Assembly: GCA_946414025.1 (NCBI GenBank)
Contig: CAMKMX010000008.1
Span: 1-64,000 of the forward strand
DNA: 64,000 nucleotides
Origin: an uncultured Fibrobacter sp.
GTDB taxonomy: Bacteria > Fibrobacterota > Fibrobacteria > Fibrobacterales > Fibrobacteraceae
Direction: 5' to 3'
The position numbers and the translations under genes are program-made. The notes beneath the pieces were generated by a model. The model did no database searches and was not told the origin of the DNA. It worked only from the letters and a program-made list of their open reading frames with translations. Positions 6,512-57,229 of the stretch are shown one piece after another; position 1 is the first letter of the stretch; each line of letters opens with the position of its first letter.

Positions 6512-7462
6512 ATGAAACCACTTTGTCGCTACATAATCTTTGCCGCGGCCCTTTTAGGCATAGCCAGTTGTGCCTCTGCGCCCCCATCCCACGACGCGGA
6601 GCGCGCCAGGGCACGGGCAGGATACAGCGCGCTAGACCCCGAAACCAGCCCTGCGGCAAGCACCCCGTCTGTAACCTCGGCCCCTACCGCCGCTTACTCC
6701 GGAGTTTCTCGCCCCATACTGATGGCACTACCCGCCGCCTCGGGTAAAGGGTCCTCCCCCATGGAGGTCGTTTCCAACAATCCCTTTGCCAAGGCCGTCA
6801 TGGAAGGTATTAACGAGTACCTTACCGAAAAGGGCTACGAGGTGCGCTCCCTGGAAGGTTCCGAAGACCTATCCAACCTAATCCAGATGCAGGGCGATAT
6901 TTCTGGCAATGGCGACGATATGTCCTACATTGCAGGACTTGCGCTCGGCGCCGATGTCTATATCAAGTTCTCCGGCTCCATCAAGAACGACATGGTGAAC
7001 GTAGAACTTTCCGCCTATGAAACCTCCACAGCCAGGCAGCTAGGCTCCAAAACCGGCATGGTCCAGAACCACGGGAACAGCAAGGACAAGCTGCGTTACC
7101 TGGTAATTTCTGCCGCCAAAAAAGCGCTCCCCGCCCTAGAAAAGACAATCCTCTCTTACTGGAACGAAGACGCCAAGAAGGGCGTCCAGTACAAGGTGGT
7201 CCTCCGGATTGGCGAACGGTTCCAGGGTTCGGGACTAGAAGACCTGCAGGACCTGAGCATATCTTCCCTGAGAAGCGCTTTCAAGTCGGTTCGAGTCAAT
7301 AACGTAACCGAAAGGACCATCGACATCATCGTCTATGCAGACCCCGAGGTTTATCCGGACGCCTACGCCGTCTATTCGGCCGTCAAAAGCGCCGTTTCCT
7401 CTTCTGCCCAGGCAAAGAAGAACAACATCGTCAACAAGCTTATCATTCTGGAACTGAACTAA
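6512..7462 (+). CDS. Predicted lipoprotein of unknown function (DUF6175-like)
   Basis: Signal peptide with lipobox-like LGIASC; full ORF. Confidence 0.6.
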   Translation: MKPLCRYIIFAAALLGIASCASAPPSHDAERARARAGYSALDPETSPAASTPSVTSAPTAAYSGVSRPILMALPAASGKGSSPMEVVSNNPFAKAVMEGINEYLTEKGYEVRSLEGSEDLSNLIQMQGDISGNGDDMSYIAGLALGADVYIKFSGSIKNDMVNVELSAYETSTARQLGSKTGMVQNHGNSKDKLRYLVISAAKKALPALEKTILSYWNEDAKKGVQYKVVLRIGERFQGSGLEDLQDLSISSLRSAFKSVRVNNVTERTIDIIVYADPEVYPDAYAVYSAVKSAVSSSAQAKKNNIVNKLIILELN

Positions 7463-7475
7463 CCCGGCATTCCGT

Positions 7476-8684
7476 ATGTTTCCGAAAGTCCTCCTCATTT
7501 TCTTCGTTTTTGCCATAGCCGTTTCGGCCAAGGTTATTTCCTGGACCGGCTATTCCGAAGAATCCCAGGAGGCGGCTACGGAGGTGGCACGTGCGGGGGT
7601 AGCCAAACAGATTTCTGTACATATTGACGCTTCCACAAGCGTAACCCACAGCGAAACAACCTCCGACAACGGCAACTCCGAAATCGAAAAGAAAATCAAA
7701 AGCCAAAATTTTTCCAGATCAGACTTGCTTCTAAACGGCATCCGCATTCAGGTTCAACCCAAGGACGGCAAGCGTTTCGGAGCCACCGCCACCCTGGATC
7801 TGGACGAGCTCGTTTCCAAATACAGGTTCAAGCTGGAAACCCTCCAGCGCACAATCAACGAAATGGAAGCCAAGGCAAGGCAGGCCCTTGCAGAACAGCG
7901 TTTTGTCGAAACGGACAGGCTGCTCGCCACAATCCCAGGAATCGTAAAATCCCAAGAGCCCATCCTGGAGGAAATGTCCTTATACACTCCTCTGGACAAC
8001 TCCATGCGGCTCAAGACGGAATCCGCTGCCATACAGCAGGCACTGACGCTAGCCCTACGGCAGCTCCAGATTTCCGTTTCGAAGGAGGGCAACCCACAAG
8101 AACTCGGCCCGAAATCGAACCTTCTCCTAACCGTAACCGTAGCGGGTCCCAAGGGGCCAATCCCCAATTTTCCACTCCTTATCGAAAACGGCGGAACCGC
8201 CCTTGCAAATGCCGCTACCGACGCCCAAGGTGCAGCCTCCTTCCAAATTCCGGCAAGCAACCTGACCCGCGGTTCCGGCGAAATCCTCATCCAACCGGCC
8301 ATTTCTGCAAACCAGCGCAACCTCGCGGGCCTTATGGCAACCAAGGTTCCCTACCAGGTTTCTTCTCCTGTATGCCCGCTAAATCTCACTTGCAACCAAG
8401 GGCCGTCGGCTTGCACCGCCGTAGCCGACCAGATTTCAAAACATTTCGGCCAGGTGGTGCAAGACAGGAGCGCCCAAACAGTCACCGTCCGTATCAAGTC
8501 GACCCCCGAACGCACTCTGAAGAACATCACCAGCTACAAGGTCAGCCTTTCCCTTTCTTCGGGAACCAGGGAATGCAAATGGAGCGGAACTGGAGCCGGC
8601 AGGACAAAGGACGAAGCCCAGACCAACGCCCTGAAAAAGATGGACCTGGGCAGCTGTATCGAAACTCTTGAGGTTTGCCAATAA
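7476..8684 (+). CDS. Predicted exported protein, LPP20-like, paired with upstream lipoprotein
   Basis: N-terminal signal peptide; co-directional, 14-bp gap. Confidence 0.55.
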   Translation: MFPKVLLIFFVFAIAVSAKVISWTGYSEESQEAATEVARAGVAKQISVHIDASTSVTHSETTSDNGNSEIEKKIKSQNFSRSDLLLNGIRIQVQPKDGKRFGATATLDLDELVSKYRFKLETLQRTINEMEAKARQALAEQRFVETDRLLATIPGIVKSQEPILEEMSLYTPLDNSMRLKTESAAIQQALTLALRQLQISVSKEGNPQELGPKSNLLLTVTVAGPKGPIPNFPLLIENGGTALANAATDAQGAASFQIPASNLTRGSGEILIQPAISANQRNLAGLMATKVPYQVSSPVCPLNLTCNQGPSACTAVADQISKHFGQVVQDRSAQTVTVRIKSTPERTLKNITSYKVSLSLSSGTRECKWSGTGAGRTKDEAQTNALKKMDLGSCIETLEVCQ

Positions 8685-8732
8685 AATCGTATCAACCTAC
8701 TCCCTTTATTCAGCAGGCGAAGAGAAAAAGTA

Positions 8733-10388
8733 TTAAGCCTCGATATACTTTTCCATAAAATCCTTCACCGGAAGCGGCTTGGAATAGTAATACCCCTGCA
8801 GGCTCTTGATCTTGAAACGGAGCAAGTAATCCCGCATTTCGGCGGTCTCGATACCTTCCGCCGTCACCGACGAGGAGAAGGAATTGGCCAGCTCCGAAAT
8901 GAACCGCACCGTGTTCTGGTCCGAAGAATCCTTTTCGATGTTTATGACAAAGCTCCGGTCAATCTTCACCGTAGATACGGGCAGTTCCCGCAAGATACCG
9001 AGGGAGCTGAACCCCGTGCCGAAATCGTCCAGAGCCACCTTGACGCCATGCTCCCGAAGGGCCGTAAATATCTCCTTCAAGAGCGAAATGTCTAGCATAC
9101 GGCAGCGTTCCGTAATTTCAAGGCAGAGATTCTGGGGCGGATACCCCGTCTCCTTGAGAATGGCCAGTACGTCTTCTACAAAATCACGAATTTCCAGCTG
9201 GGTATAGGACAGGTTCACGTTCACCACGAATCCCGGATAACGCCTGAGGAACCTCTTCGCATCTTTCAGCGCCGTGCGCAAAATCCACCGGCCAAGTTCC
9301 GGGAAAAGATTGTCCCGCTCCAGCACCTCCACGAATTCTAGCGGAGACACGATTCCATATTCGTCATTTTTCCAGCGGATCAGGGATTCTGCTCCGGTAA
9401 TCATCTCGGTTTCTGCATCTACGATAGGCTGGTAACAGAGGAAAAATCCCTCGCAGTTGTTCACGATACTATTGCGGATAACATTCAGGCGCTCAATGGC
9501 AAAACGTTTGTCTTCGCTGACGCTATTCTTGAGCACATAGAGTTCGCCCAGATGGTTAATCTTGGACTCATAATAGGCGAAACGGAGACACGAATAAACC
9601 GTTTCTACAGACACGTCAAACCGTTCCAGGTTGATGGCGCCCGCTACAAAAGAAAGCACCACATGCTGGCCGTCCACTATCAGGTCGTGAATGCAATTAT
9701 ACTGTATCCGCTTGTAAAGGTTCTTGAGGTCTTCGGAGGTGGCGTTCTTGCACACGATGGCAAACTTGGTGCCGTCCATACGGTACCACTCTCCCATATC
9801 AAAAGCTTCCACCTTGATCATCTTGGCGAATTCCTGCAGCACCCGGTTCCCGAAGGTGTAGCCGTAAATTTCATTCAGGTGCGAAAATTCCGAAAGTCCC
9901 AGCATCATAATCTGGATTTTTTCGCCCTTCCAGGTGGAAGAACGCAAATCGTCCATAAATCCGTAAAGGCTCCGGGAATTGGACACGTCGTCGAAATAGC
10001 TTAGGGCATCGTTGTTCCGGACCGAACCACCAAAGAATTCGGGTGTTCCGTTCTCGTCCCTAACGAGCACTCCCCGGCAGGTACACACGATGTAGCGGCC
10101 GTTCTTGGTCTTGATACGATACTGCTCATGGTGATTACCCGCATTCCGATCATAGACATTTTTTACACTTTCCTTGAATGCAGGCAAATCGTCCGGATGT
10201 ATATTCCTCATCCAAACAAGGAGCGCGTCCTTCATGTATTCAGAAGGCAAGCCGAAATAATCAACGGCATCCTTGGACCACCTGGTTATCCCCGATTCGA
10301 TATGGGTCACATAGGTGTAGGCACCATTGGCCAATACGGAGAAGGCGTCGAACAGGGAATCTATCCGCGCTTTTATACCATCGTTCAT
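8733..10388 (-). CDS. PAS-GGDEF(degenerate)-EAL cyclic-di-GMP phosphodiesterase-like protein
   Basis: EAL-domain motifs GAESLIRW, NVNLSYTQLE, LEITER, DDFGTGFSSL, KIDRSFV; GGDEF degenerate (YRMDGTKF). Confidence 0.88.
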   Translation of the reverse strand: MNDGIKARIDSLFDAFSVLANGAYTYVTHIESGITRWSKDAVDYFGLPSEYMKDALLVWMRNIHPDDLPAFKESVKNVYDRNAGNHHEQYRIKTKNGRYIVCTCRGVLVRDENGTPEFFGGSVRNNDALSYFDDVSNSRSLYGFMDDLRSSTWKGEKIQIMMLGLSEFSHLNEIYGYTFGNRVLQEFAKMIKVEAFDMGEWYRMDGTKFAIVCKNATSEDLKNLYKRIQYNCIHDLIVDGQHVVLSFVAGAINLERFDVSVETVYSCLRFAYYESKINHLGELYVLKNSVSEDKRFAIERLNVIRNSIVNNCEGFFLCYQPIVDAETEMITGAESLIRWKNDEYGIVSPLEFVEVLERDNLFPELGRWILRTALKDAKRFLRRYPGFVVNVNLSYTQLEIRDFVEDVLAILKETGYPPQNLCLEITERCRMLDISLLKEIFTALREHGVKVALDDFGTGFSSLGILRELPVSTVKIDRSFVINIEKDSSDQNTVRFISELANSFSSSVTAEGIETAEMRDYLLRFKIKSLQGYYYSKPLPVKDFMEKYIEA

Positions 10389-12238
10389 CTTTCGCCTCCT
10401 TGCGCATAAAACACCTGATTTCGTCCGTTTTCCTTGGCCTTGTAAAGGGCCTGGTCCACACGGACATAGGCCGAGTCGGCAGATTCGCCCTCCTGGATTT
10501 CCACCACGCCAACGCTTACGCTACGGTGACCCGCCTTTTCGAATTCCATTTCATTGAAGGCCTTGCGAACTTTTTCTGCAAAATCAAGAGCCTTTTCAAT
10601 AGGTGTCTCACGCAAAAGCACCATAAATTCTTCGCCGCCCCAACGACCAATAGGCGATTTCACCGTTAAAATCGATTCCCGCAGTCCACGGCTGGTTTCA
10701 TCAAAATCATCGTCGTCTTCCATCACCCTGTAATCCGATGAGTCTATTCCCGAAAGCCCCGTTTCATCCACCGTCTTTTTCAAGACATTGGAAATGCCGA
10801 TAATGACGTTGTCCCCCTCCTTGTGGCCGTAGGTGTCGTTAATCTTCTTGAAATTGTCAATATCCATCATCACAAGGCACGCAGGCGTTTTTTCCGCTAT
10901 GCATTCCTTGATACAGCGCTGGATTTCGCCACGATTGAACAGGTGCGAAAGGGGGTCCGTAATGGCCATCAGGGACAGCTTCGCATTTGCCTGCGCCAGT
11001 TCCTGAGTGGCCGCATCGATAAAGGTGGCAAGGCGGTTAATCATGGAAACCTGGCCCGAGAACGAATCTTCTGCCATATCAAACTTGTGACTATCGTCGC
11101 CATCGCCTTCACGCATGGCGGCAATCACCAGCGTCACGTTGTGCTGGTTTACAAAACCGTTAGTCCTCAAAAATTCGCCGGCGGTGTAAAAGCCCGATGT
11201 AGGGGCGATACTCTGGAACGGAAGGGTCTCGTTACTGATTTCTTCTTTTCCCCAAAAAGAACGACGGGCCGCACAGGAAAAGACCTTGATGATATCGGGC
11301 TTGAACTCCCCTATTTTTTTTCCGTCCTTACGAATACAGTCCAGGATTGTCCAGGGGTCGCCATAGGCAAGGCGGGCCTTGACATTCTCGTCAATGTCCG
11401 AGGTCATGACCAGAGTGCCGTCTTCGTTGCAATGGACAGGGGCCCGGAGAATATCTATGCCGTTGTGCTTGTAAAAGAATGGGAATTCCAGCGTATTGGC
11501 GAAAAAATGTTCGTCATTCAAGATTTTCAAATAGCGGTAATAAATTTCGTAAGCGGGCTTGCTGTCCAGTTCAAACAGGAGGGCATTTTGAGCCTTTGTT
11601 ACCAGGAACTCCCTGCCGAGGGGTTTCCAGCCAGCGATATGCGTGGTGTAGATATGTAAGTCTTCGCCTCCTATCAAAAGGACAAGGATTCCCCGTTCCG
11701 AATACCCCCCTACATTCGAAAAGACGCAGGCATCGTTCTTGGACAGGTCCGGGTTAAAGGCACCTCCCCCAAAAATGGCTATCGATTCATCTACATCGTG
11801 CAGTGCATCGCAAAGAGGCGACAGGGACATTCCCCGAATAGTCAGTTGCAGTTCCACCCCCTTGACCCAGGGGTTTTCCCGGACTTTCCGCTTGATATTT
11901 TCCACCACGTCCAGCGCTGTTTCGCCATTCAGGGTGTACTGCAACAGCTTCACCTTCGTAGAGGGCTTTTCCAAAATGGTACAGACTACGGATATGGTTG
12001 TAGAGGACAATCTTCCTTCTATGATGTTTCCGTTGGTGGAACAACCCATACAGATGGCGTGGGGGATGGTCCTTGTGATGACATTGCTGACCAGTTCCAT
12101 CTGCCCCCGGTCCAGGGAATCGGAATATATCTGGAAAACAACATTAGAACAGCTCTTTGACTTGTACCAAAGGCGAACCTTTTCGAGATCCCGAGTCAGG
12201 GACGTGATACTGTGGTAATCAAACTGGAACTGTTTCAT
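10385..12238 (-). CDS. FIST sensor domain plus GGDEF diguanylate cyclase
   Basis: GGEEF active-site motif (GRWGGEEFMVLLRET); FIST N/C-like N-terminus; 4-bp overlap with EAL gene. Confidence 0.85.
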   Translation of the reverse strand: MKQFQFDYHSITSLTRDLEKVRLWYKSKSCSNVVFQIYSDSLDRGQMELVSNVITRTIPHAICMGCSTNGNIIEGRLSSTTISVVCTILEKPSTKVKLLQYTLNGETALDVVENIKRKVRENPWVKGVELQLTIRGMSLSPLCDALHDVDESIAIFGGGAFNPDLSKNDACVFSNVGGYSERGILVLLIGGEDLHIYTTHIAGWKPLGREFLVTKAQNALLFELDSKPAYEIYYRYLKILNDEHFFANTLEFPFFYKHNGIDILRAPVHCNEDGTLVMTSDIDENVKARLAYGDPWTILDCIRKDGKKIGEFKPDIIKVFSCAARRSFWGKEEISNETLPFQSIAPTSGFYTAGEFLRTNGFVNQHNVTLVIAAMREGDGDDSHKFDMAEDSFSGQVSMINRLATFIDAATQELAQANAKLSLMAITDPLSHLFNRGEIQRCIKECIAEKTPACLVMMDIDNFKKINDTYGHKEGDNVIIGISNVLKKTVDETGLSGIDSSDYRVMEDDDDFDETSRGLRESILTVKSPIGRWGGEEFMVLLRETPIEKALDFAEKVRKAFNEMEFEKAGHRSVSVGVVEIQEGESADSAYVRVDQALYKAKENGRNQVFYAQGGER

Positions 12239-34934: not shown

Positions 34935-35843
34935 ATGGCCATGAGCCTCAACACGAACCGTATGGACGCCTACCTGGCCTTCTTGGGAGTGGAACGGAAC
35001 CTTTCACCCAAGACCATCCAGAGCTACCAGGAAGACCTGCGGCATTTTGTCGCCTGGCTAGACGAGGGCGGCATCGACCTGAAAGAACTCACCACCCAGA
35101 AACTGGACGAATTCCTGACTCTTACCGCAAGCCGTGCGGAATACTCCCCCACCTCCGTAGCGAGGCATTTTTCTAGCCTGCGGGGGTTCCTCAAGTACAT
35201 GCAAAATCAGGGCGAGTACAACTTCAGCACGGAATCAATGCTGGAGCGTCCGAAACTCGGGCACTACCTGCCGGAATACCTTACCCGCGAAGAAGTGGAC
35301 AGCGTTTTCGAAAGTGCGGCCAACGGCAAGAACCCGCTGAGGGACACCGCCCTCTTCGAACTCATGTACAGTGCGGGGCTACGCATCTCGGAAGCGCTGG
35401 GCATCAAACTTTCGCAGCTGGACCTGGACAACGAGTGGCTCACGCCTATCGGCAAGGGCAACAAGCAGCGCCTGATTCCCCTGGGCAGCAAGGCAAAAGA
35501 AAATTTGAGGGCGTGGATCGAAGATGGCCGACCCCTCACCCACCCGACTACAGACAACATAATTCTAAATAAAAACGGCAAGCCCATGAGCCGCATGGGA
35601 GCCTGGAAAATTGTGCAACAGCACACGGCCCACCTGACCAAGCAGGTGTCACCCCACACCTTCCGTCACAGCTTTGCCACCCACTGCCTGGAGGCAGGCA
35701 TGGACCTGCGCGTGCTGCAGGAACTGCTAGGCCATGCCGACATCAGTACCACGCAAATTTATACGCACATCGATAAGGAATTTATCAAGCAGGAACACCG
35801 GCAGTTCCACCCGAGAGAAATTCAAGACCGCACTGGGAAATAG
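34935..35843 (+). CDS. Tyrosine recombinase XerC/XerD type
   Basis: GLRISEALGIKLSQL, SPHTFRHSFATHCLEAGMDLRVLQELLGHADISTTQIYTH. Confidence 0.93.
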   Translation: MAMSLNTNRMDAYLAFLGVERNLSPKTIQSYQEDLRHFVAWLDEGGIDLKELTTQKLDEFLTLTASRAEYSPTSVARHFSSLRGFLKYMQNQGEYNFSTESMLERPKLGHYLPEYLTREEVDSVFESAANGKNPLRDTALFELMYSAGLRISEALGIKLSQLDLDNEWLTPIGKGNKQRLIPLGSKAKENLRAWIEDGRPLTHPTTDNIILNKNGKPMSRMGAWKIVQQHTAHLTKQVSPHTFRHSFATHCLEAGMDLRVLQELLGHADISTTQIYTHIDKEFIKQEHRQFHPREIQDRTGK

Positions 35844-53269: not shown

Positions 53270-54025
53270 TTGGACATGTACACGGAACCGAAATTTTTGG
53301 CCATGAAGGACAAGTCCAAGGCCAAGCGGATGGCCGAACTCCTGCGGGTCATCATCTTGCAATTGGGCGACGACGTGCCCCGCGCCAGGCGGGAATTCGA
53401 GACCTACGCCGGCTGGATGAAACTGCCCGAAGGAGAACGCCTAGTAGGCAAGAACCAGGCCCAGATGATTGACCTGTACAAGACGTTTCGCACGCGGGCG
53501 GGCCTCGGGTTCGAACGGGATGTTTACCTGGAGCAGGAACCGGGGGACCGCGAAACACCAAACGAGAAGCCCATCCCCTTCGCCGTGCTGGTGCACAACC
53601 TGCGGAGCGCCTTCAACGTAGGCGCCATCATCAGGAGCACGGACTGCTTCGGTCTCGAAGGAGTCCACCTGAGCGGCTACAGCTGCGGCCCCGACCACGT
53701 GACGGTAAAAAGTGCTGCCCGAGGCTGCCAGGAATGGATTCCCATCAAGCGCTGGGAAAGCCCCATGGATTGCATCAAGTGGCACAGGGAAAACGGCTAC
53801 GAAATCATCGCACTTGAAACCGGCGAAGACATTCCAAGCATTACCGAAGTGAAATGGCCCGAAAAGGGGCTCATCATCCTCGGGAACGAGGAACTGGGAA
53901 TCGCCCCCGAACTCATGGAACAGGCCACCCTGAAGGTGACCATCCCCATGGCAGGGCGCAAGGCCAGCATGAACGTGGCAGGAGCATTCGCCATCATGGC
54001 GTTCTGCTTGAGGAACAGAAATTGA
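53270..54025 (+). CDS. TrmH/SpoU-family RNA methyltransferase
   Basis: VLVHNLRSAFNVGAIIRSTDCFG, LGNEELGIAPELME, IPMAGRKASMNVAGAFAIM. Confidence 0.93.
   Translation: MDMYTEPKFLAMKDKSKAKRMAELLRVIILQLGDDVPRARREFETYAGWMKLPEGERLVGKNQAQMIDLYKTFRTRAGLGFERDVYLEQEPGDRETPNEKPIPFAVLVHNLRSAFNVGAIIRSTDCFGLEGVHLSGYSCGPDHVTVKSAARGCQEWIPIKRWESPMDCIKWHRENGYEIIALETGEDIPSITEVKWPEKGLIILGNEELGIAPELMEQATLKVTIPMAGRKASMNVAGAFAIMAFCLRNRN
53978..54025. repeat. 48-bp direct repeat, copy 1 (3' end of trmH-family gene)
   Basis: GCAGGAGCATTCGCCATCATGGCGTTCTGCTTGAGGAACAGAAATTGA. Confidence 0.98.
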
Positions 54026-54087
54026 TTTCTCGGTGGAAACTCTTTTTTTAATGCACTGTTCTTGTAGTCATCGGCAGAAAAAATCCA

Positions 54088-54873
54088 TTATAGCCAATTT
54101 TCTACAAATTCCCTGAACTGCAGGATTTTTTCGCTAGAGTGGACATTGAACAGCAGATGTTCGAAATCCCGCTTTTTCATGTTTAGGTCAACACTGTCTG
54201 CCACCTTCAAAAGTTCGCATTTCAAGTGAGCGCTGTCCTTGATGCCATTGCTCTTTTGCAGGAAATCGATGTTGGGTTCTGTTTGCGGCAAAAGGAACAT
54301 AGTGTCATAAAAATCCCGTCCCTTGCCACGGGACAAAAGCGCAGAAATTTTCATTGAACAAAGAATGTCATCAGGAGGGACCTGCAACGGGAAAAAGAAT
54401 CCACATCCGCTCACGTTTACCATCTGAGGCTTGTATCCAACGCCCTGATCTTCGGCTTCAATCTTCACCAGCAAACGTTCTTCCCTATGGCCACTCAGTT
54501 TCAGCGTAAAAAGCAGTTCTGGGAAATAGATGCTTCGCCGGAAAGCCGTTATCCTTTCGCTTTCCTTCTGTTTGACAACCGCATTCAATCCATTCCCTTG
54601 CAGGTAACGAATAATGTTGTCTGTAAGCAAAATAAAATCTCCCCTAGTAAGATCTTTGCAGTCAAAATCCAGGTCTTCGGAAAAACGGTCAATTTTCTTG
54701 ATTAGTCGAAGATTCGTACCTCCGATAAATGACAAGCGGCGTACATACTCCGAACTGGAGATGTAGTCCAGAATCATAAGCAGCAAATACTCCTTGAGCA
54801 TCTGCTTTGCAAACAAAGAATTACTCGCAATCTGCGGCGGGAAGAAATTTTTGATATAGTCCAAATCAACCAT
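54088..54873 (-). CDS. AbiEii-like nucleotidyltransferase toxin
   Basis: LSFIGGTNLRLIKKIDRFSEDLDFD motif; paired with AbiEi-like gene. Confidence 0.88.
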   Translation of the reverse strand: MVDLDYIKNFFPPQIASNSLFAKQMLKEYLLLMILDYISSSEYVRRLSFIGGTNLRLIKKIDRFSEDLDFDCKDLTRGDFILLTDNIIRYLQGNGLNAVVKQKESERITAFRRSIYFPELLFTLKLSGHREERLLVKIEAEDQGVGYKPQMVNVSGCGFFFPLQVPPDDILCSMKISALLSRGKGRDFYDTMFLLPQTEPNIDFLQKSNGIKDSAHLKCELLKVADSVDLNMKKRDFEHLLFNVHSSEKILQFREFVENWL

Positions 54874-55492
54874 ACAGCCTCAACAAATCTTTAACGCGCC
54901 TATTCAGCGCCTTGCTTGCAAACTTTTCCAGATAGCCTCCCAACCTTTCACGGTCAAGCGAATCCGTCATGAAATCTTCATCGAGACGAAGTGACTCAAA
55001 GTCTTCTTGCGTCTTATAAAACGGGTTCAAATACAAAAAATCCAGCAGAGCCTTTTCGGGTGTCGCCATCAAGAAATACTGACCGTTTGCCGACGGATGC
55101 TCTATAGGGTACGGCGCATAGCCAAAAAACAATGACGGCTTCAGGTTCTGGTAAACGAACTGCCCCCAGCCATTTTCGAACGAGGCTGTCTTCAGCGATG
55201 TCACGCAAGTTAGCTGCACCACGGTCTCAGGAATCATCCCGTAGAACGCAAGGGCATACTGGAGCGAGATGTAAGAAGGCTTGTAAATCTTGTTGGCAGA
55301 AAGCCTCACAAAATCAGGATTTTTCCCGAACTCCGGAAAAGAAAACCACCCCCGACGAAGCCGTACAATGTACCCTTGTCTCAGCCACCGAGTCAGGTTC
55401 ATCTGACTGAAATCAGGATACTCCGCAAGTACCTGGTTTGTCGTAAAGCACACCAACGGGGAAAAAGTCTCTTTAAACCGCAGATAATTCAT
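54866..55492 (-). CDS. AbiEi-like antitoxin
   Basis: Winged-helix-like N-terminus (LTRWLRQGYIVRLRRGWF), ATPEKALLDFLYL; 8-bp overlap with toxin. Confidence 0.82.
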   Translation of the reverse strand: MNYLRFKETFSPLVCFTTNQVLAEYPDFSQMNLTRWLRQGYIVRLRRGWFSFPEFGKNPDFVRLSANKIYKPSYISLQYALAFYGMIPETVVQLTCVTSLKTASFENGWGQFVYQNLKPSLFFGYAPYPIEHPSANGQYFLMATPEKALLDFLYLNPFYKTQEDFESLRLDEDFMTDSLDRERLGGYLEKFASKALNRRVKDLLRLYG

Positions 55493-55585
55493 TTTATTTC
55501 TTTTGTTATACAAATATATATAATTTTGGAAACAAAAGCAACATTTTTCTCGTAAAAAAGCAGTCTGAACCTCGTCAAAACGATT

Positions 55586-55633
55586 GCAGGAGCATTCGCC
55601 ATCATGGCGTTCTGCTTGAGGAACAGAAATTGA
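55586..55633. repeat. 48-bp direct repeat, copy 2
   Basis: Identical over 48 bp to 53978-54025. Confidence 0.98.
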
Positions 55634-55774
55634 CAGCAAAGACAGCTCCAACCGAGAAGCAATCGGATTTCCGTCCGTTTAGAACAAAGAAGCACCTGCA
55701 TCCCCCTCTTTGTCACTTCGGCTCCGGGTCGGGGTGATATGAGTTTGAGGCGAGGATGACAACGAAAAAAAAAA

Positions 55775-57187
55775 TCAAACATTCATCAAGTGACGACGCC
55801 ACTTGCCGCCAACCCAACGGCGCCAGAAAATAATGGGCGCGGTACTGTAGACCGCCACCACCGCAATCCAGGCGTAATGGGCCGGCAGTTGGAACACATA
55901 AGCGGAAAGGTAAAGCGCTCCCGCCACGCACCAGTTCATGATGGCGCTGGCGAACATGACCCACAAAGTATCCCCCGCCCCACGCAAGGCCCCCGCATAG
56001 ATGACTAACAGCACCTCCACAAAAATATACAGGGAGGCAAACCGGAGCATAAAAATACTCATGGGGCGCGCCGCATCAAAAATGGCCACAGCTTCCGCCG
56101 AAGCCTCCGCTATGTCGGGCCTGAAAATGTCGGTCAGCACGCCCGGCAAGAACACGAACAGCACTCCGGTAATCAAGGAATAGCCCCACCCTAGGCGCAA
56201 CCCCGAGTAAGTAGATCGCGTAGCGGCAGCGACATTCTTCGCCCCCACATAACGGCCCACAAGGCTTGTGGACGCGACCTCCAACCCCATCAGGGGAACG
56301 TAGGCCACCATGTCCCAGTTGAACATGACCGACGACGCCGTGGCGGGTTCGGGTCCAAGAGCGTGGAACATGAGAATCAACAGCTGGAACGCCGACATGT
56401 TCAAGAACATCTCCACTCCCGACGGAATCCCCCGCTGCAAGAGTTCTCGGGTCAAGGGCCAGCTAAAAGCAAAAGAGGAACGGGTACCAAAACGGCTGTT
56501 GTAGGACTTGCCGAAAAACTTTGCAAACAAAATAATGGTTGAAACCGCGTTCCCGATAAGGGTTCCATAGGCCGCCCCCGCCACACCCAAAGCGGGAACC
56601 GGACCGAGACCATATATCAACACAAAGTTGCAGGCCACATTCACAATCATGCCCACAAAGGCAGCCTTCATCACGATTTTCGTCTCGCCGATACCGCTAA
56701 AGAAACAGGGCGCCACGTTCCGCACCAGGTTGATGATACCGCCGAACATCAAAATATCGAAGTAGGTCTTCTGGTATTCCAGCTGGTCTGCAGCCAGATT
56801 TTCCATGCCGAAAATAAAATGCCCAAGAGGGATGGTCAGGTACAAAATGGGTACGCATACCAGCGACACGTACAGGGCCTGCATAAAGACCTTGGCACAT
56901 TCCCCATGGCGTTTTGCCCCCAGACGCTGGGCCACCATGGCAGTGGTGTAACTGATGGCCCCCGTAAAGAACATGGTGAGCGCCAGTTGCACCGCGCCAG
57001 CTCCCAGGGCCGCGTTCATCTCGGCAGGACCCAGCTTGGAGAGGAACAGGCGGTCGATAAAGGTCATGAAGGTGTCAAAGGACATGGACAGGAGCATGGG
57101 GAGTGCCACCACCAGCACATCCTTCACGTCGCCATTTTTCTTGAATTTTGAAGGCCTATAGAACTTATTGAGTATCGCACCGACCAT
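55775..57187 (-). CDS. MATE-family efflux transporter
   Basis: 12-TM pattern; ALPMLLSMSFDTFMTFIDRLFLSKLG. Confidence 0.88.
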   Translation of the reverse strand: MVGAILNKFYRPSKFKKNGDVKDVLVVALPMLLSMSFDTFMTFIDRLFLSKLGPAEMNAALGAGAVQLALTMFFTGAISYTTAMVAQRLGAKRHGECAKVFMQALYVSLVCVPILYLTIPLGHFIFGMENLAADQLEYQKTYFDILMFGGIINLVRNVAPCFFSGIGETKIVMKAAFVGMIVNVACNFVLIYGLGPVPALGVAGAAYGTLIGNAVSTIILFAKFFGKSYNSRFGTRSSFAFSWPLTRELLQRGIPSGVEMFLNMSAFQLLILMFHALGPEPATASSVMFNWDMVAYVPLMGLEVASTSLVGRYVGAKNVAAATRSTYSGLRLGWGYSLITGVLFVFLPGVLTDIFRPDIAEASAEAVAIFDAARPMSIFMLRFASLYIFVEVLLVIYAGALRGAGDTLWVMFASAIMNWCVAGALYLSAYVFQLPAHYAWIAVVAVYSTAPIIFWRRWVGGKWRRHLMNV

Positions 57188-57229
57188 ATTGGGCGACAAA
57201 TATAGTTTTTTTTCTATCTTTGTGCTACT

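Follow-up and report, generated by a model that had tools for sequence, protein, structure and literature searches.

Cis-mobilizable elements (CIMEs) have lost their integration and transfer genes and have kept attL and attR (PMC5704250). SCC/ECC cassettes sit at the 3′ end of rlmH with direct repeats of ∼50 bp (PMC6222049). For restriction-modification (R-M) systems, insertion with a long target duplication goes back to Nobusato et al. (2000), as cited in PMC3031569 ("long and variable target duplications") and PMC4978471. How solitary toxin-antitoxin (TA) pairs travel without a transposase or an integrase is an old open question. Here, we describe a predicted AbiE TA pair set between two copies of a gene end in a 64,000-nucleotide stretch of DNA from an uncultured Fibrobacter sp. 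(contig CAMKMX010000008.1, positions 1 to 64,000; referred to as the window). Our literature search found no description of such islets for Fibrobacter. The locus offers a filled and an empty site, a second cargo, and defined 48-bp junctions, so that excision and re-integration become directly testable, and it suggests where an attachment site may lie in Fibrobacter genomes.

The repeated gene end and the enclosed AbiE pair

The gene at 53276 to 54025 (+ strand; the ORF is also open from a TTG at 53270, giving 53270 to 54025) encodes a predicted SpoU/TrmH-family RNA 2′-O-methyltransferase (PF00588; E value, 4e-32). Its product falls below every NCBIfam equivalog cutoff for TrmH and RlmB, which allows a family-level name only; "trmH-family" is the right label (hereafter, trmH). 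The 3′ end of the gene is the putative target site. Its final 48 nt, TGA included, occur twice on the + strand: as the functional gene end at 53978 to 54025 (copy 1, attL-like) and as a displaced tail at 55586 to 55633 (copy 2, attR-like), the latter abutting the sequence found directly behind trmH in a relative with an empty site. A repeat search returned a single family with two copies of 48 nt that are 100% identical, at a spacing of 1608. The bases outside the 48 bp differ on both sides (left, ...GTG/GCAGG versus ...ATT/GCAGG; right, TGA/TTTC versus TGA/CAGC, with the slash at the repeat boundary), and a longer segmental duplication of which the second copy would be part, a possibility raised in the first-pass annotation, was rejected on these grounds. 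The repeat also contains the dyad CGCCATCATGGCG, which was flagged as a hairpin; the dyad results from the codons for Ala-Ile-Met-Ala, and we make no claim of a binding site. Behind copy 2, native intergenic sequence (55634 to 55774), continuous with trmH in the empty relative, leads to a MatE gene at 55775 to 57199 (− strand).

The islet between the copies measures 1560 bp (54026 to 55585) and holds only abiEii and abiEi, both on the − strand and overlapping by 8 bp. The former (54088 to 54873) encodes an intact, 261-aa nucleotidyltransferase-like toxin, confirmed by Pfam PF08843 (9.3e-15) and PADLOC PDLC02313 (1.7e-106). The latter (54866 to 55492) encodes an intact, 208-aa winged-helix antitoxin/repressor that is confirmed by PADLOC PDLC02241 (2.7e-79); its matches to Pfam AbiEi_4 and NCBIfam models fall below the cutoff. 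With a toxin and an adjacent, co-oriented, upstream winged-helix antitoxin present, the two genes form a predicted TA pair of AbiE type IV. The remainder of the islet comprises a left flank reaching from copy 1 to the AbiEii stop codon (54026 to 54087), the upstream (promoter) region of abiEi (55493 to 55549, − strand), and a right flank reaching from there to copy 2 (55550 to 55585). Among the ORFs between the repeats, no recombinase, integrase, or conjugation gene was found. The first-pass annotation thus stands on its basic observations, namely, that the last 48 bp of the gene, with the TGA, recur identically at 55586, that nothing but an AbiEi/AbiEii pair and flanks (∼1.56 kb) lies between the copies, and that the islet has neither an integrase nor a transposase.

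A second AbiE pair was found in another Fibrobacter genome (G032; L112:8071-9475 on G032:C4), where an MlaD-like gene and the gene following it enclose the pair, ∼57 kb from the trmH gene of that genome. The two pairs are 86% identical in DNA and 92% identical in AbiEii protein, and they have only 54093 to 55549 in common: the left flank is absent from the G032 copy (BLAST homology starts at 54093), and the conserved abiEi upstream region marks the right limit of the shared two-gene unit. Between these copies, dN is far below dS for both abiEii (0.055 versus 0.818) and abiEi (0.057 versus 0.726), which shows that both proteins are selected for; the AbiE pair is intact and evolves under purifying selection. 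Two further genomes (G069 and G088) have the same place as the G032 insertion without AbiE, and no direct repeat was found at the G032 junctions. Because the G032 pair entered another place and has no repeats around it, the trmH site is not a requirement for the cassette. AbiE therefore moves as a unit of two genes, and it has more than one way of doing so. A decayed AbiEii remnant occupies a third genomic position in G091 (L157:1500-1840, G091:C4).

Known phages and plasmids were considered as vehicles for the islet and rejected, as there was no phage record and one distant plasmid match (32%, Runella). Separately, a viral contig (L117; IMGVR_UViG_3300006226_001595) encodes an AbiEii relative (54%) and bears microvirus-like capsid and replication proteins, with the ORFs judged by eye.

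Empty, filled, and differently filled loci in Fibrobacter

An exact empty site is present in Fibrobacter sp. UBA4375 (L032), which is ∼97% identical to the window across trmH. Here, one repeat copy is joined to CAGCAAAGACAGC..., the sequence that follows position 55633 of the window, and the same MatE gene comes next. Such a precise empty site could also be explained as loss by crossing over between the repeats. The same islet, with 97.6% nucleotide identity over 1560 bp, occurs with a different repeat allele in RUG831 (L033, the same locus as G021). Position 3 of the repeat is A/A in the window genome (G000), G/G in L033, and A in L032, and the two L033 copies differ from each other at one further position (GGCATTC versus GGCGTTC). 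Within the body of trmH, the local relationships shift: over the first part of the gene, L033 is mostly the partner of L032, but near the 3′ end (sites 528 to 603) the empty L032 and G000 cluster together, to the exclusion of the filled L033. From this grouping it follows that loss, re-gain, or local exchange has happened. Between G000 and L033, dS is 0.083 to 0.084 for the islet and 0.194 for the trmH body. Together, the shifting trmH relationships and the low islet dS suggest that the islet was gained, lost, or exchanged after the lineages split.

The ∼140 bp at 55634 to 55774, shared by G000, L032, and L033, begins exactly after the stop codon; at L034 and L038, a small ORF of the 68-aa type takes its place. 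The stretch may be a scar that some earlier event left at this position.

A different cargo is found at the same gene end in another species, Fibrobacter RGIG6669 (L046, from genome G034), in which the trmH tail at 6709 to 6763 recurs at 10346 to 10400 (spacing, 3637). The 3.6-kb cargo (6904 to 10275, on G034:C68) encodes a 946-aa Fib_succ_major lipoprotein-like protein (PF09603) and a 104-aa HipB-like helix-turn-helix (HTH) protein (PF13560). The gene after the second copy, which has PD40 repeats, sits close behind trmH in related genomes, L047, L061, and L073 among them. The L046 repeat begins at the same codon (GCNGG) as the window repeat and ends 4 nt past the stop codon, with weaker, gapped similarity reaching ∼17 nt further upstream. 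Its two tails differ at 5/55 nt; every difference is synonymous and falls in the first 31 nt, and the probability that five random changes would all be synonymous is ∼7e-4. Because the differences are synonymous only, both tails were in working genes until recently, which is what the arrival of DNA with a tail of its own would produce; the same pattern points to one copy having come from a diverged functional tail, rather than to target duplication followed by drift.

Both an empty trmH locus, with a single copy joined to the sequence after 55633, and other cargo between the same kind of repeats had been predicted in the first-pass annotation. The first is realized in L032 and the second in L046, where Fib_succ_major and HTH genes come with their own trmH tail. 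The opposite expectation, that all relatives would carry AbiE with no empty site and no other cargo, is contradicted by the same two loci.

Many relatives of the L046 HTH gene elsewhere in the genus directly precede a long HipA-like ORF (assessed by reading frames only); this frame is missing behind the L046 gene, which therefore looks orphan. One contig of G067 (L123 and L137; G067:C77:13049-15974) holds a full and a truncated HipB-like HTH gene, ∼2.5 kb apart. The window and L046 islets also have similar ends, with TTTCT..GGAAA behind the stop codon and ACGATT before copy 2, an observation (n = 2) on which no claim is made.

The tail motif was detected in 75 of the 80 Fibrobacter genomes, and only 4 of these 75 have it more than once. 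Two copies on one contig were found in 3/80 genomes (G000, G021, and G034), and the independent cases of duplicated-tail cargo number only two. G066 was rejected as a further case: its two copies lie on different contigs, one of which starts inside trmH, and are followed by dissimilar sequence, so that the genome looks like a mixed or split assembly. A repeat scan of ∼60 trmH loci retrieved no other gene-end duplication bracketing cargo, a comparison of gene ends that is limited by the selection of these loci around trmH. When placed on the gene-body tree, the tail types require 9 changes for all labels (minimum, 3). Among close pairs, identity drops from 0.87 at repeat nt 1 to 21 to 0.70 at nt 22 to 36, and synteny is 0.385 downstream of trmH versus 0.655 upstream. 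Fib_succ_major-like genes lie between trmH and MatE in L035, L036, L037, and L080, with no repeat detectable around them. Taken as sequence patterns, these features fit a hot spot behind trmH; variable C termini and gene order have other causes too, and variable C-terminal tails can arise without insertions.

Recombinase search and competing explanations

Candidate recombinases were sought outside the islet as well. A BLAST search with the two tyrosine recombinases found in the G000 assembly gave no match within 59 trmH loci. One non-Xer tyrosine recombinase (G000:C14:57938-58831) has close relatives in 44/80 Fibrobacter genomes; as a helper it was rejected, because no close relative was found in G021 or G034 (both incomplete metagenome-assembled genomes [MAGs]) and no link to the islet emerged. 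The integrase-like gene of the window (34935 to 35843) was likewise rejected as the islet integrase: its high-scoring relatives throughout the genus mark it as an apparent Xer recombinase. No integrase-bearing element with the same repeats was found in the 80 Fibrobacter genomes (the MAGs among them being incomplete) or in IMG/VR, and the tail motif had no match among IMG/VR viral contigs. The interpretation as a mobile TA islet that the first-pass annotation had proposed thus gained an empty site and an alternative cargo, whereas an integrase-bearing relative with the same repeats did not turn up. Insertion with a long target duplication, or recombination between the repeats, would produce an identical picture.

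We give a probability of roughly one-half to the reading that the locus is a non-autonomous, CIME-like integrative islet, with the trmH-family 3′ end as its attachment site and a recombinase that acts in trans or has been lost. The 1560-bp AbiEi/AbiEii cassette would have been inserted at the 3′ end of the trmH-family gene, with the two 48-bp tail copies as the junctions attL and attR. Incoming DNA would have carried or recreated the gene tail, leaving the host gene intact and the displaced tail on the far side, and in a second Fibrobacter species a different cassette would, on a separate occasion, have taken this position. Because the islet encodes no recombinase, integration would have been effected in trans, or the islet would be a CIME-like remnant, all that is left of some larger element; it could then be excised or exchanged by homologous recombination through the two tails. 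The duplication, the exact empty site, the second cargo, the intact and selected TA genes, and the lack of a recombinase in the islet are observed, whereas the site-specific enzyme, its action in trans, and excision are elements that we infer. In favor of this reading are the repeat that ends exactly at the stop codon, the empty site, the islet shared with L033, the second cargo with its synonymous-only tail differences, the repeated switching of tail types, the drop in conservation within and behind the tail, the lack of other bracketed gene ends in the repeat scan, and the low dN of AbiE. The absent integrase-bearing element, the lack of close C14 relatives in G021 and G034, the existence of only two cases, the repeat-free G032 insertion, and the other possible origins of variable C-terminal tails count against it.

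The main rival is insertion with a long target duplication, in which a repair or illegitimate event that is not site specific duplicated the 48 bp; neither an attachment site nor a dedicated enzyme would be involved. Such a process has been proposed for genes of the TA and R-M cassette type (PMC3031569 and PMC4978471), and in G032 the two AbiE genes do occur on their own at a locus unrelated to trmH. The single repeat copy at the empty site of L032 is in keeping with it, and the agreement of both copies at repeat position 3 in G000 and in L033 is as it predicts, the copies being identical in G000 and 1 nt different in L033. However, target duplications are expected to vary in length and place, and here two cargos in two species share the same gene end, their repeats beginning at the same codon and closing with the stop codon or a few nucleotides beyond it; moreover, the L046 copies differ only synonymously (5 sites). 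We regard target duplication as a serious but minority possibility. Under homologous recombination alone, the resident trmH tail would have recombined with a piece of DNA, linear or circular, that held the islet plus one tail, or the islet would have spread between strains along with the trmH flanks; the repeats would be junctions homogenized by gene conversion, and L032 would have lost the islet by crossing over between them. This mechanism explains the allele pattern well (the grouping of G000 with L032 at the gene end, an islet dS below that of trmH, and the local allele at position 3 in both copies) but not the origin of the arrangement, as it gives no account of how a tail first bordered each cargo or of two unrelated cargos at one site. 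A further point against it is the length of the repeat, since RecA recombination has its lower limit not far below 48 bp, and we consider this explanation unlikely.

An assembly artifact or a chance repeat is very improbable. The compared relatives are MAGs, and the window genome is a draft of 56 contigs that is 82% complete; against this, the same islet with both repeats was assembled independently in RUG831/G021. Chance was rejected because only ∼3e-20 exact 48-mer pairs are expected in 64 kb. Returning to the integrative islet, a broader version is conceivable but doubtful: the trmH-family 3′ end might be a genus-wide Fibrobacter integration site at which an undescribed recombinase, acting in trans on the ∼50-bp tail, brings about the insertion, exchange, and loss of small recombinase-less cassettes (TA pairs and lipoprotein genes), in a manner resembling SCC at rlmH.

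Comparison with known systems

The genes of the islet are in themselves ordinary and share with AbiE type IV TA systems the same AbiEi antitoxin, the AbiEii nucleotidyltransferase, the gene overlap, and the PADLOC matches; their setting is the finding. With cargo between direct repeats at a gene 3′ end and with neither an integrase nor transfer genes, the islet resembles a CIME. In contrast, no related integrase-bearing ICE or IME with the same attachment site was found, and the islet spans only 1.6 kb with a single TA pair. We therefore call it CIME-like and do not file it as a CIME, although its repeats and missing genes would fit. R-M insertions provide a likeness of another kind, that is, a toxin-antidote-like pair alone, without a transposase, between target repeats and with an empty site in a relative. 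Here, however, the repeated sequence is exactly the 3′ end of a gene, and in another species a second cargo uses that same end.

The first-pass annotation had drawn an analogy to SGI1 in mnmE. Unlike the islet described here, SGI1 elements are of large size and come with mobilization functions and an integrase of their own. SGI1-type islands are located at the 3′ end of trmE/mnmE, likewise a tRNA-modification gene (PMC8409611). The analogy is a fair one, but SCC/ECC at the rlmH 3′ end is closer, given its ∼50-bp repeats and RNA-methyltransferase gene. SCC/ECC cassettes have in common with the Fibrobacter islet the 3′ end of such a gene, the repeat length, and variable cargo, and remnants with attL and attR exist (PMC6222049). 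They carry ccr genes for serine recombinases, whereas the Fibrobacter islet is without a recombinase gene, and their size is far greater, an ECC of 32 kb being one example (PMC6222049). Furthermore, SCC/ECC target rlmH, whereas the gene used here is a PF00588 SpoU/TrmH-family gene in another phylum. By analogy, the two would be similar in their working and not members of the same family.
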